Shown here one piece after another: positions 869 through 33,256 of a stretch of DNA of 34,937 bases; position 1 is the first letter of the stretch, and the number at the start of each line of letters is the position of its first letter. The DNA is taken from contig QOOS01000012.1 in the NCBI GenBank assembly GCA_003331425.1, forward strand, positions 1-34,937, written 5' to 3'. Under the pieces are notes generated by a model. The model did not search any database. It saw only the letters and a list, made by a program, of their open reading frames with translations, and was not told where the DNA came from. This DNA comes from Candidatus Nitrosopumilus sp. (GTDB lineage Archaea; Thermoproteota; Nitrososphaeria; Nitrososphaerales; Nitrosopumilaceae). The translations under genes and the position numbers were made by a program.

Positions 869-2698
869 TCAATTATTTATCAAATGCTCAATTGAAACAA
901 TCATGTCACCTATGGTAAGTTTGTCTTCCGATACCCACAAAGCTAGGTTTGCAACCCATGGAGGCAACTGTTCATCTGCAATTCCTAATAATATTGCAAG
1001 TTCTGAAACATCTTGTGTTGAACCAGTCCAATCTGAAACCACATCATTGAGCATTGACTCATCATAGAAACCCAACACCTTTTGATTTACTTTTGATTCA
1101 AAAACTAGCGGCTCGTTTCCTGCAACCTTCAAAGTTAGTGGTAAAGATACCTTGAAGAAATTTCCTGACCTGTCAGTTCCTTGAACCCAAACATCAGTAG
1201 TCTGCATCGGTTGCAAAAATTTCATGTTAAATGAGATGGTAAACGTGCCAGTCAAATCGTCCTGATTACAACAAACTCTGTTGTCTAATTCTCCAGATTC
1301 TTCAATTACAACATCAGCTTTTGACCATTCTACAGTTTGATCATAATCATAAAACAAATCATCGCCAGTGTTGTGCCATTCATAAAATGTTGTACTTACC
1401 TTTCCATATTCATCAAAATTGTTTGCATAAAAATTATTCATGTCATTTGGTTTGTGTAAAAAGTTCGTATACGTTCCACTATCTGCAATTCTCTCCAAAG
1501 TTCTGTTGTCAGTTAACTCTAAAACAATTTCAACTTGATCTCCAGGGTCTGCAATAATTGGAGTCTTGTAATCATCAAACATTGGGTATGGTGTTTTTTG
1601 ATCAAATGTCCATACATAGTCACGTGTTTCCGATATTTGTGGAGAATTTTCATTAATTATCTCATCAGATGTGTTTGATGTGATATTCACCTCAACTTTG
1701 GCCAGTTTTGGAGCTTCACAGTCATAACATTCATCAGATTTCTTAACTTCTTCTTCACCACATGTTCCAGTTAATTGCCATGGACACGATAATTCAAATT
1801 CACGAATAAACTCTCCAGTTCCATTCCATCTATGATTACCATCTCCTCTATTTGTTCCAAGAACATACATACTTGTTCCATCGGGACTGAATCCTAAACC
1901 CTGGGCATCTTGTTCCCATTCAAGTACATCAAATTCACCTTCATATGAAAAAGAGTCTACATCATAAGCGATGCCCAAGGTAAACTCATGAACTTTTGCA
2001 ACATCAAAACATGCACTTGCACAATCAGCTTCAATAACATAAAATTTATTTCCGTCATCACCAAATTCCATTCCTCTTAGTGACTTTGTTAAATGATCAC
2101 TAATATCAATAGTTCTCACTACACTACCTAATGGTTTGATATCAAATGCATCAATATGAAATTCTAATACGCTTTGTCCTCTATTATTTAGAAATATTTT
2201 TGTTCCATCACCACTGAACTCCATTCCATGCGGACCAGTACCAACAGTATTAGTAATGTCGATTTTTTGTGCGAAACTTGCAGTCTTCACGTTAAAACCA
2301 GTCGATAATGAGTATTGATTTATCTCATCAGCAGCATTACCAACTACAAACATTTTTGTTCCATCACCATTAAACTCTATTCCTCTTGGTTGACCGTCAC
2401 CTGTTCCACCTGAATTTGAATTGAATCGTTGACCATTACCTGCATACGAAAGTGTTGTTAAATCATATCCTGTTGAAAGTGTATATTGTTCAATGAAATC
2501 AGTTGCACCTTCGACAATTATCAATCTTGTACCATCTTCATTAAAATCAAAATAACGAGGTGTGCCGCCAGAACCTGTTAATTCATGACTCTCTACAAAA
2601 GTTACAGTTGCATCAGTAATTTCAGCAAAAGCATCAGAAGGTACAAGAAATACTAGGGAAAATAATGCTAAAACGGATAAAATTATTTTAATTTGCAT
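869..2698 (-). CDS. Secreted beta-propeller-like protein with C-terminal Ig-like region
   Basis: A 609-residue exported protein. Residues 1-25 form a signal peptide (basic start, hydrophobic core, cleavage around DAFA-EIT). Residues about 47-305 hold five related units (about 47-90, 104-145, 156-190, 207-255, 265-305). Each contains an F(N/S)xDGT(K/R)-hydrophobic strand followed by an EYTLST-like strand, as in beta-propeller surface proteins. A Cys-rich linker follows (C305, C313, C324, C327), then a long region without repeats that looks like beta-sandwich domains. There is no obvious C-terminal membrane anchor, so it is probably secreted or bound to the S-layer. Function unknown; adhesion or cell-surface binding is a guess. 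Transcribed alone. Confidence 0.7.
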   Translation of the reverse strand: MQIKIILSVLALFSLVFLVPSDAFAEITDATVTFVESHELTGSGGTPRYFDFNEDGTRLIIVEGATDFIEQYTLSTGYDLTTLSYAGNGQRFNSNSGGTGDGQPRGIEFNGDGTKMFVVGNAADEINQYSLSTGFNVKTASFAQKIDITNTVGTGPHGMEFSGDGTKIFLNNRGQSVLEFHIDAFDIKPLGSVVRTIDISDHLTKSLRGMEFGDDGNKFYVIEADCASACFDVAKVHEFTLGIAYDVDSFSYEGEFDVLEWEQDAQGLGFSPDGTSMYVLGTNRGDGNHRWNGTGEFIREFELSCPWQLTGTCGEEEVKKSDECYDCEAPKLAKVEVNITSNTSDEIINENSPQISETRDYVWTFDQKTPYPMFDDYKTPIIADPGDQVEIVLELTDNRTLERIADSGTYTNFLHKPNDMNNFYANNFDEYGKVSTTFYEWHNTGDDLFYDYDQTVEWSKADVVIEESGELDNRVCCNQDDLTGTFTISFNMKFLQPMQTTDVWVQGTDRSGNFFKVSLPLTLKVAGNEPLVFESKVNQKVLGFYDESMLNDVVSDWTGSTQDVSELAILLGIADEQLPPWVANLALWVSEDKLTIGDMIVSIEHLINN

Positions 2699-2701
2699 TA
2701 G

Positions 2702-2715
2702 ATCTGATCTCAGAT
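2702..2715. promoter_or_regulatory. Perfect inverted repeat at the start of the propeller gene
   Basis: ATCTGA-tc-TCAGAT lies 3 to 17 nt upstream of the ATG at 2698. In a short-leader transcript it would overlap the transcription start or ribosome landing site. It could be a repressor operator or a 5' hairpin. A six-base-arm repeat can arise by chance, so confidence is low. Confidence 0.3.
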
Positions 2716-2819
2716 TTTTTCAATATGTAAGATTTTTCTATAATTTTAGGCACAAATATCCAATTTATAGGAAAATTACTGTGTGAGAATTAATTGAAAA
2801 TAATTTTAAAATTAAATTA

Positions 2820-4178
2820 TTAATTTGGTATTCTTACATTATTTTTTAACATCATCAATTCATCTACTGCATCTCTTTTGAGTGCATCAAAGAACTTTTC
2901 AAGCATTGTTAATCCTGCAACAATTTTAGGTGCATTGTTTTGGACAAATTCAGTTCTTTCAGAATGTGTTTTTGGGGTTTGTTGTTGATAAGCATCAAAA
3001 ACTTTAGCGCCATCATAATCAACATATGCAATTCTTGCACTAAAGTCAGTTCTTTCCAAAACTAGACTATCTCCCCCTACTATTGCAGTATGATATGGAT
3101 GAACAATTAATGCTTCAGATAATTTTTGGGACGTAGTGATTTTTGCTTTTTGTAATTCTGGTGCATATGCATTAAAATCAGCTAAAAGATAAAACGTTGC
3201 CTCAGGTTTTGTAGCTTTAATCCCATCAATTGCAGTTAATGTATTGTAAGTATATTCCCCCATAATTTTATGAATATTTCTTGTAACTTTGAAATACTCA
3301 TCCATTTCATGACTTATTTCAAATCCTGCAACTGCAGCATGCTGAATTGGAGTAGATACTGCAGTGTATTCAGTTGCAAGAATTTTTTTGAATTGAGCTT
3401 TAAGATCAACAGCATGTTGAGGAAATACCACATATCCTAATCTGTATCCCCCAGCAGCATGGGATTTTGATAATCCGTTTGTAACAAAAGTTCCTTCAGG
3501 ATAGATTTTTCCCATACTAACAAATTTTGAAAAATCATACGTAGTTTGAGCATAAATTTCATCAGAAATTACTGTAATGTTTAATTCTCTACATACATCT
3601 GCAAGCTCCTCTAATTCCAATTTGTTGTAAAGCATTCCAGTTGGATTGTGAGGATTATTCAAAATTAGGATTTTTTGCCTATCTTGCAATCTTAATGCTA
3701 ACCGTTTAAGATCATTTGGAGCGATTTTTCCATTTGCCCTAGATGGTAACATGTGGAAATTTTTTTTCAAAAATCTAATTTGTGGTAGATATCCTAGCCA
3801 TGCAGGAGTAGGTAAAATTACAGTTCCGTGTAAAATTTCTAAAAGATTGAAAATCAGTTCTTTTGTGCCAGGACCTACATAGATACGCTCAGGGGCTACA
3901 TCTATTCCAAAATAATGTTTATTATATTTTGAAATTGCATTTCGTAACTGTGGTATGCCTGGAACTGCAGCATATTCTCCTTTGTTTGCATTTTGAATTA
4001 ATGCTTCTTGAATTAATCTAGGCACAGGAAATGGGGATTGTCCAAAAGCAAATCCATAAAATCCAAATTGACATTCAGGATGAGTGCAATCTGAATGAAA
4101 TTCTTGTAAAAATGTATTTAGTTTTAGATTCTCAGGCATCTCAATGTCTTCAACTTGTTGATCAACTATGAATCTCAA
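2820..4178 (-). CDS. PLP-dependent class I/II aminotransferase
   Basis: A 452-residue fold-type I aminotransferase. It shows NNPHNPTG (174-181), SDEIY (205-209, cofactor-ring Asp 206), the Schiff-base lysine K238 in NGLSKSHAAGGYRLGY, and R246 in the phosphate site. These are diagnostic of the aspartate/alanine aminotransferase group. The usual length is 390-400, so this protein has extra N- and C-terminal segments. The C-terminal part (from about residue 395) looks helical and is not typical of the family. An alternative start is Met14 (MPENLK). The amino donor cannot be read from sequence. Confidence 0.85.
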   Translation of the reverse strand: MRFIVDQQVEDIEMPENLKLNTFLQEFHSDCTHPECQFGFYGFAFGQSPFPVPRLIQEALIQNANKGEYAAVPGIPQLRNAISKYNKHYFGIDVAPERIYVGPGTKELIFNLLEILHGTVILPTPAWLGYLPQIRFLKKNFHMLPSRANGKIAPNDLKRLALRLQDRQKILILNNPHNPTGMLYNKLELEELADVCRELNITVISDEIYAQTTYDFSKFVSMGKIYPEGTFVTNGLSKSHAAGGYRLGYVVFPQHAVDLKAQFKKILATEYTAVSTPIQHAAVAGFEISHEMDEYFKVTRNIHKIMGEYTYNTLTAIDGIKATKPEATFYLLADFNAYAPELQKAKITTSQKLSEALIVHPYHTAIVGGDSLVLERTDFSARIAYVDYDGAKVFDAYQQQTPKTHSERTEFVQNNAPKIVAGLTMLEKFFDALKRDAVDELMMLKNNVRIPN

Positions 4179-9595: not shown

Positions 9596-9859
9596 TCACA
9601 TCTTTGGTGCTCTTACGTAGGTTCCTTTGTAATGATTCATCTTCTCAATTAATTTTTCATCAAATGGAATGTATTCATCATTTCGTAATTGTTCAATTGG
9701 GATTTCCGGCATTGATATTTCTTCAGATTCAACTCCTGCAGAATCCAAAATATCAAAATAACTAATTATGGTTTGAACTTTTTCTAGATATTCACTATGA
9801 TCATCTACATCTATTTTCATCAATTTTGAAACATGTTCAATTTCTTCAACGGTAACCAT
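9596..9859 (-). CDS. gatC: Asp-tRNA(Asn)/Glu-tRNA(Gln) amidotransferase subunit C
   Basis: 87 residues with the GatC pattern: an N-terminal VTVEEIEHVSKLMKIDV helix, an SYFDILD helix, and the C-terminal extended YVRAPKM that wraps GatA. It is the first gene of the operon. An AGGAG sequence sits about 8 nt before the ATG, a Shine-Dalgarno-like signal that most genes here lack, so this transcript probably has a real leader. Confidence 0.92.
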   Translation of the reverse strand: MVTVEEIEHVSKLMKIDVDDHSEYLEKVQTIISYFDILDSAGVESEEISMPEIPIEQLRNDEYIPFDEKLIEKMNHYKGTYVRAPKM

Positions 9860-9896: not shown

Positions 9897-9903
9897 TATA
9901 AAA
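9897..9903 (+). promoter_or_regulatory. TATA box on the plus strand, divergent from gatC
   Basis: TATAAAA in the context CTATAAAATGG. An archaeal start site would fall about 25-28 nt downstream, around 9925-9930, just before a strong stem-loop and with no plus-strand protein gene following. Confidence 0.45.
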
Positions 9904-9925
9904 TGGTAGGCACAAAATACTTTGA

Positions 9926-10010
9926 TCTGATTGTTTAGCCACGTGGTAGAGCGATAATCCCAAAAGATGCGTTAGTTTGAATTATCGCAGCCCAGCATTA
10001 CCCATGGCAA
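9926..10010 (+). ncRNA. Candidate structured small RNA upstream of gatC
   Basis: Two stacked helices are visible. The lower one pairs 9938-9948 (GCCACGTGGTA) with 9999-10008 (TACCCATGGC), nine pairs with one mismatch and one bulge. The upper one pairs 9951-9958 (GCGATAAT) with 9981-9988 (ATTATCGC), eight perfect pairs with a 22-nt loop. The asymmetric internal loop has 2 nt on one side and 10 nt on the other. The 5' end is inferred from the TATA box at 9897. It lacks tRNA arms and has no clear C/D boxes. An H/ACA-type guide is possible but unproven. Confidence 0.45.
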
Positions 10011-10095
10011 TATTTTCTATTGAAAAATTATGATAAATAAAAAAATGAATAAAAAAATTGATCTTGTCATTAATTTTCATTAATACAAAAAGTAT

Positions 10096-10162: not shown

Positions 10163-10241
10163 TTGACTTATCTCATAAATTTTTGTTAAAATTAAAAAAG
10201 TGTGAAAAACTTGATTAGCAGATCAAAAATTATCTAAAAAA

Positions 10242-32321: not shown

Positions 32322-32418
32322 TGATTACAGGTTTTTTAAAAATGAAATTTTTTGTTAGGTGTTATTGAAATATTTTTAAAAAATTTAATTATTAGTTAAA
32401 AAATATCAGAAATTGAAA

Positions 32419-32625
32419 ATGACATTGTGTCCAACATGTAAATTATCTATGGAATCACATTCTACTCCAGAATTAATGGAATGTTGTATGAAACAAGTGA
32501 ATGATGGACTAATAGATAATCAAAAAGGTACATGTCCAAATTGCAAACATCAAATAGAAAAACATTCAGATAAACAATTAGCTGAATGCACATTAGAATT
32601 TTTAAAATCAAATAACAGCAATTAA
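32419..32625 (+). CDS. Duplicated zinc-knuckle protein (68 aa)
   Basis: Two copies of a CPxCK-x4/5-H-S-x4-L-x-E-C unit: CPTCKLSMESHSTPELMEC and CPNCKHQIEKHSDKQLAEC. Each unit supplies three Cys and one His, a likely zinc site. The copies are separated by about 19 residues. I chose the ATG at 32419; the in-frame TTG at 32413 is an alternative. It is first in a run of small plus-strand genes. Confidence 0.65.
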   Translation: MTLCPTCKLSMESHSTPELMECCMKQVNDGLIDNQKGTCPNCKHQIEKHSDKQLAECTLEFLKSNNSN

Positions 32626-32662
32626 AGATAAGATTAAACAAGAGAAAGTATGCCAATTAACC

Positions 32663-33256
32663 ATGAATCAATTAACTAAAAAAATTATCAGCGAGTTTTC
32701 ACCAATGTGGACAAATAAACAAGTCTGGGAATTTGATCAAACCAATCCTGAATTGACTTTTGATTTAATTTATGTTGAACCTGGTAAATATGATGAAAAA
32801 TTATGGGAATCAAAATCAGCTCACTTGGATTCAGAGGTTAGAGATCTAATTGTTAGAACATTTGATAATTTGTTAGATAATGAGGAATTATGGATTTCCA
32901 ATAAAAGTGAAAAATCATTGAACAAAAATAATGTTGCATATCTAATGGCAGTAATTGTTGACACCATGATTGAAGAGGAAGTTTGTCTAAATTTCAGACT
33001 AGATAGAGACTTCTTAGTGTTATCAATAGATAGAGATGCAGATGTAATTGATTGTAAAGAATTTTTTGAGGAGTTTTATCATTTGGCTACGGGTTTCAAT
33101 TATGATACAGATACAGGAATTCCAGATGATGAAACTGAAGCAGAAATGTATCTAACACGATTGCAAGAGGAATTTGATGAAAAAATGAATGGTTTTCTTG
33201 GAGACAAGTACTTGCCAGGAAATAATGATCCAGATACCATCAATGCAGAAGAATAA
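32663..33256 (+). CDS. Hypothetical acidic protein (197 aa)
   Basis: A soluble, mixed alpha/beta protein with a very acidic C-terminal third (GIPDDETEAEMY...NNDPDTINAEE). It has two Cys (about 109 and 133) in different blocks. It follows the zinc-knuckle gene by 37 nt and precedes two coupled microgenes. No family recognised. Confidence 0.6.
   Translation: MNQLTKKIISEFSPMWTNKQVWEFDQTNPELTFDLIYVEPGKYDEKLWESKSAHLDSEVRDLIVRTFDNLLDNEELWISNKSEKSLNKNNVAYLMAVIVDTMIEEEVCLNFRLDRDFLVLSIDRDADVIDCKEFFEEFYHLATGFNYDTDTGIPDDETEAEMYLTRLQEEFDEKMNGFLGDKYLPGNNDPDTINAEE

Follow-up and report, generated by a model that had tools for sequence, protein, structure and literature searches.

The 34,937-nucleotide stretch of Nitrosopumilus DNA analyzed here (the window) contains a minus-strand gene, predicted with high confidence, for a small RNA that we designate RNA1 (Table 1). 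Genome comparisons demonstrate its homology among relatives, its strand, two covarying helices, a promoter at fixed spacing, a location that shifts between genomes, and degeneration in some lineages. RNA1 is probably best explained as a regulatory small RNA or RNP that is encoded by a single-copy gene, acts in trans and is not essential.

Table 1. Positions of RNA1, its parts and adjacent features in the window.
Feature	Position	Strand	Evidence or remark
gatC	9596-9859	-	Downstream neighbour, outside RNA1; Pfam GatC E 0.0097, below cut-off
TTTTATA	9897-9903	-	Likely box A of gatC; TATAAAA when read on plus
RNA1, small RNA gene of ~80 nt	9930-10012	-	Covariance-model match; predicted 5′ end ~10011-10010; P1 ends at 9938
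Inverted repeat with two helices	9938-10008		Outer arms 9938-9948/9999-10008; inner arms 9951-9960/9979-9988
P1 3′ strand (TACC, bulged A, CGTGGC)	9938-9948	-	Folding, pair counts
P2 3′ strand	9951-9960	-	Folding, consensus structure, pair counts
Apical loop (AAACUAACGCAUCUUUUG)	9961-9978	-	Kept within clade
P2 5′ strand (GCGATAATTC)	9979-9988	-	Folding, consensus structure, pair counts
GCUGG, internal loop 5′ side	9992-9996	-	Conserved; GAAGG or GATGG in some relatives
P1 5′ strand (GCCATGGGTA)	9999-10008	-	Folding, consensus structure, pair counts
RNA1 promoter core (ATCAATTTTTTTATTCATTTTTTTATTTA)	10034-10062	-	Conserved; TATA-like box ends at 10034
Upstream dyad TTAAT-N6-ATCAA	10058-10073	-	Possible operator, by inspection; consensus TTGAT-N6/7-ATCAA
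RNA2, second candidate RNA hairpin	10086/10096-10164	-	Near-copy of RNA1 promoter at 10187-10215

The DNA at this locus forms an inverted repeat whose two helices, P1 (outer) and P2 (inner), are separated by an asymmetric internal loop, and a TATAAAA on the plus strand lies 34 nt from the repeat. This is much as the original prediction had described it, including the G+C content of the stem (49% in the hairpin core versus 27% in the flanks) and the lack of a plus-strand protein gene, with no plus-strand open reading frame of at least 60 aa over the hairpin in the list compiled for the window. The RNA itself reads 5′-(U)AUUGCCAUGGGUAAUGCUGGGCUGCGAUAAUUC-loop-GGAUUAUCGCUCUACCACGUGGCUAAA. The GCCAU...GUGGC of P1 is kept among relatives, 50 of 58 sequences having a U.G pair there, and the variation in P2 is compensatory. 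The GCUGG of the internal loop is not invariant across relatives and the 3′ side of this loop is variable between clades, as is the apical loop, both in length and in sequence.

RNA1 is assigned to the minus strand because G.U pairs far outnumber C.A pairs when relatives are read on that strand and because the minus strand folds better. Among 21 of 22 sequences aligned on both strands (alignment A1; L038 was left out as a duplicate), RNAalifold predicts a structure of 17 pairs at -18.2 kcal/mol on the minus strand versus 12 pairs at -8.6 kcal/mol on the plus strand. A larger alignment (A4) contains 52 loci, leaving out further copies from the same genomes and L170, which also gave a spurious second match. 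In 52 distinct sequences, standard pairs occupy 846 of 870 cells (97.2%) on the minus strand versus 751 (86.3%) on the plus strand, and reading the minus strand gives 100 G.U cells versus five C.A. The minus strand has the more stable fold in 50 of the 52, and also in all seven sequences that were folded individually on both strands. In the window itself, the 83-nt minus-strand RNA has a fold z-score of -2.41, and the 114-nt plus-strand interval one of -0.11, with 87 of 200 shuffles folding equally well or better. A strand call made from a hairpin alone can thus mislead, and wobble pairs in relatives settle it.

Both helices are supported by covariation. In 58 distinct rows, fitted to the covariance model and so favouring the model's own structure, 97.2% of cells are paired and 11 of the 17 pairs have changed on both sides (tree-free counts). 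The covariation score of 0.290 compares with 0.160 for shuffled alignments, no shuffle scoring as high, and with at most 0.086 for versions in which the pairing was slid along the sequence, which leave 21–56% of cells paired. When the set is reduced to 19 representatives with less than 80% identity, 96.2% of cells remain paired and eight of the 17 pairs are doubly changed. Such compensatory changes in relatives were one half of the refutation test proposed with the original prediction, and that half is passed; a small RNA gene is well supported, although not on the plus strand to which it had been assigned.

Upstream of RNA1 on the minus strand is the element ATCAAYTTTT-N5/6-TTTTTTTATTTTA, at a near-constant distance from the gene. 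A logo of 56 distinct upstream regions shows mostly more than 80% conservation at positions -34 to -22, and a TATA-like box occupies -27 to -22 relative to the first model position. Archaeal TATA boxes follow a rule of about 25 bp from box to start, by which this one would start transcription close to the A of ATTGCC. The dyad situated farther upstream (-61 to -46, read by eye) is a possible operator of the RNA1 promoter, to judge from its sequence. When eight genomes were searched for the promoter element with up to three mismatches, it was found mainly at RNA1, at RNA2 in the window clade, and at scattered places with three mismatches, a distribution that rules it out as a general promoter of stable RNAs.

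Relatives of RNA1 recur in many marine ammonia-oxidizing archaea: within the window's genus, in a few further genera of its family, and in a single distant genome. When 61 genomes were searched at the DNA level, four apart from that of the window had a clear relative, and following up a weak match (L006) revealed a family that keeps the plan but has quite different stems. A gapped pattern based on the conserved RNA1 end recovered further members, whereas its reversed control gave few matches in the same genus. Model R1 (E ≤0.1) matches 55 of the genus's 95 genomes, and 38 of the 56 good ones among them, with one RNA1 per genome except for a single genome with two; the E-values of the models are rough, and any training sequence matches by construction. 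In a sample of the class, 42 of 200 genomes match at E ≤1, 34 of these at E ≤0.006, and model R2 (E ≤0.05) matches 56 of 400 genomes representing five of 82 genera, one of them weakly (G321, 0.02) and one belonging to the R2 training set (G215). Stricter filters were applied in searches spanning more than 40 genomes.

The remaining 40 of the 95 genomes of the genus, some of them complete, have no RNA1 match, indicating that its function is not universal. Judging from these genomes, RNA1 is dispensable: several have lost it or carry a decayed copy. When the search was repeated with higher sensitivity on 33 genomes, none of which had given a strong match before, the only matches were weak ones in nine genomes. 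In three of the nine (L219, L220 and L221, at ~1501-1581) the match looks like a degenerate RNA1 that still lies beside the neighbour genes of the common place.

In most relatives RNA1 lies away from gatC and is convergent with an unrelated gene, and in the window clade it is upstream of or near gatC. A small zinc-ribbon-like gene, named from its sequence and lacking a Pfam match, adjoins RNA1 at 39 of the 57 loci that form the rows of the upstream-region set, and a matrixin-like gene is often on the opposite flank at the common place; the comparison of neighbours itself covered every collected locus. The counterpart of this place in the window (32413-33256, plus strand) retains two neighbour genes; the window's RNA1 sits at 10 kb, and neither the zinc-ribbon-like nor the matrixin-like gene was found in the window. 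The changing place of RNA1 among relatives suggests that it acts in trans.

Two further observations concern the 3′ end of the gene. In L034 (region 1651-3001), and likewise in L132 and L251 of the same species, a 378-aa gene is situated between RNA1 and gatC, and ~20 bases of the RNA1 3′ end (CTCTGCCTTGTGGATAAACAA) are duplicated beyond it, 99 bases from the gatC start and at the site where RNA1 ends in other genomes; weaker traces of the 3′ end occur at the same distance from gatC in L037, L039 and L058. Separately, ~18 bases that equal the RNA1 3′ end as found in the window are present inside two small coding sequences of one genome (L013, 772-798; L249, 1019-1041), in which they are read as part of an LPRGRA peptide that we take to be AT-hook-like. 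This second likeness is probably due to chance.

A protein-bound regulator is a tentative mechanism for RNA1. The dedicated TATA-type promoter, perhaps with its upstream operator, would start transcription at ~10011, and the folded RNA would consist of P1 and P2 on either side of the asymmetric internal loop, whose 5′ side carries GCUGG, with the apical loop closing P2. The nearly fixed P1 sequence together with the GCUGG loop would constitute a putative protein-binding site, and contacts with a target might be made by the apical loop, which changes faster, by the GCUGG strand, or by the two together; RNA1 would then be a regulator, as an RNA or RNP, that cells can do without, and not a housekeeping RNA. 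Our searches identified neither a target nor a protein partner. A search of the window genome for extended antisense matches to the apical loop gave nothing except RNA1 itself, and other genomes contain scattered one-mismatch matches that form no consistent set. A 16S rRNA complement of the GCUGGGA loop (UCCCAGC, SSU 739) was considered and discarded; RNA1 variants keep only 4–8 bases of it, which we estimate to be no better than chance. Ammonia-oxidizing archaea rank with the most abundant marine cells, and an RNA1 transcript could be sought in existing metatranscriptomes. The natural losses and the dedicated, possibly regulated promoter also mean that strains with and without RNA1 can be compared.

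The main rival to a regulatory RNA is an atypical archaeal H/ACA-like RNA in which the internal loop forms the pocket, an ANA lies 3′ of P1, and Cbf5 is bound so as to guide pseudouridylation; we regard this as unlikely. Following the H/ACA criteria in the available text of PMC7991803, where the distance from target site to box in archaea is given as 14–16 nt, RNA1 has the two helices around an internal loop that are typical of an H/ACA hairpin. An ANA triplet is located 13–15 nt after P2 in 40 of the 52 distinct sequences, and RNA2 also has one right after its P1. However, the triplet is missing at that spacing from the other 12 sequences, and its context is A+T-rich DNA in which ANA is favoured. 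There is no K-turn or K-loop 5–6 nt above the pocket, where P2 is continuous Watson-Crick pairing that covaries; the UGA at the top of P2 varies together with its partner as C-G/U-G/U-A. The pocket's 3′ side differs from clade to clade, and the best bipartite target scores of three RNA1 variants against the window genome's own rRNAs (23–26) are within the range for shuffled sequences (mean 22–23.5, 95% at 29–30).

A palindrome acting at the DNA level, such as a transposon end or an integration site, is very unlikely. It would be in keeping with a gene that changes place and with the partial duplication of the RNA1 3′ end around an inserted gene in one species, but G.U-rich pairing on one strand is expected of RNA and not of DNA; moreover, RNA1 is single-copy with fixed promoter spacing, and no viral contig matches either of two exact RNA1 patterns.

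Two readings that tie the hairpin to gatC are barely credible. Naming of this gene accords with adjoining open reading frames that are gatA- and gatB-like (named from their sequences), and its closest counterpart in the genome collection is that of Nitrosopumilus sp. AH-558-J19 (99% protein identity). The original prediction envisaged a plus-strand small RNA started from the TATAAAA and antisense to gatC, and the box and the hairpin are both present, but the hairpin begins 79 bases upstream of the gatC start codon, on gatC's own strand and not opposite the gene. Read on the minus strand the TATAAAA likely belongs to the gatC promoter as its box A, since TTTTATA is kept before gatC in L034, L038, L039 and L058, where an intact RNA1 is non-adjacent or was not seen. 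A plus-strand RNA was therefore rejected on its promoter as well as on its chance-level fold and the wobble bias. The second reading, a cis-acting leader or riboswitch of gatC, agrees with how RNA1 is placed in the window, ahead of gatC and on gatC's strand, but the conserved box A and a GGAG intervene between them and RNA1 is elsewhere in most relatives.

RNA2 and RNA1 may share a common plan of promoter element, P1, 5′ bulge, P2, loop and an ANA after P1, with no K-turn. The RNA2 hairpin (GCC.AGATTAC...GTAATCT.GGC) is conserved, with ANA directly 3′ of P1 in eight of nine complete rows, and includes GGGATTTGAACC, a 12-nt antisense of what we take, from the tRNA T-arm consensus, to be a tRNA T-arm. 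Strong RNA2 matches come from close relatives only, with E <1e-24 in 13 of the genus's 95 genomes, and in G001 the two RNAs are on different contigs. That RNA1 and RNA2 represent an unrecognised small RNP class of ammonia-oxidizing archaea, acting on tRNA or rRNA in a manner unlike standard H/ACA guides, is a speculation that we consider quite unlikely.

Database comparisons place RNA1 in no known class. At gathering scores Rfam 15 has no match in the window, and when the window and three relatives were scanned permissively, all matches fell far below those scores. ARAGORN predicts no tRNA or tmRNA genes in the window; a tRNA or degenerate tRNA, suggested by the D-arm-like TGGTAGAGC, was ruled out by this result and by the non-tRNA-like alignment of the family. 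Box C/D sRNAs contain C (RUGAUGA) and D (CUGA) motifs, and neither was seen by eye in the family sequences. A survey of the open-access literature, with subscription journals mostly outside its scope, brought up no account of RNA1, nor of any lineage-specific regulatory RNA conserved in ammonia-oxidizing archaea, including in the available text of PMC5069720, PMC2864571 and PMC7991803. Older small-RNA surveys of the ocean may already include some members of the RNA1 family among their unnamed transcripts.

Tan1, as described in the available part of PMC5069720, is like RNA1 a lineage-specific marine archaeal ncRNA without an assigned function; its length of 229 nt, its complex structure and its occurrence in marine Euryarchaeota set the two apart by description. 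With archaeal H/ACA guide sRNAs RNA1 shares a single hairpin with a lower helix, an asymmetric pocket-like loop, an upper helix and often an ANA, and it differs from them in lacking a K-turn or K-loop, an rRNA target scoring above shuffles and a conserved 3′ pocket strand. Although no Rfam 15 family matches it in sequence or structure, RNA1 resembles the intergenic regulatory sRNAs of archaea in being short, intergenic and trans-located, in having its own predicted promoter and in being dispensable in some lineages.
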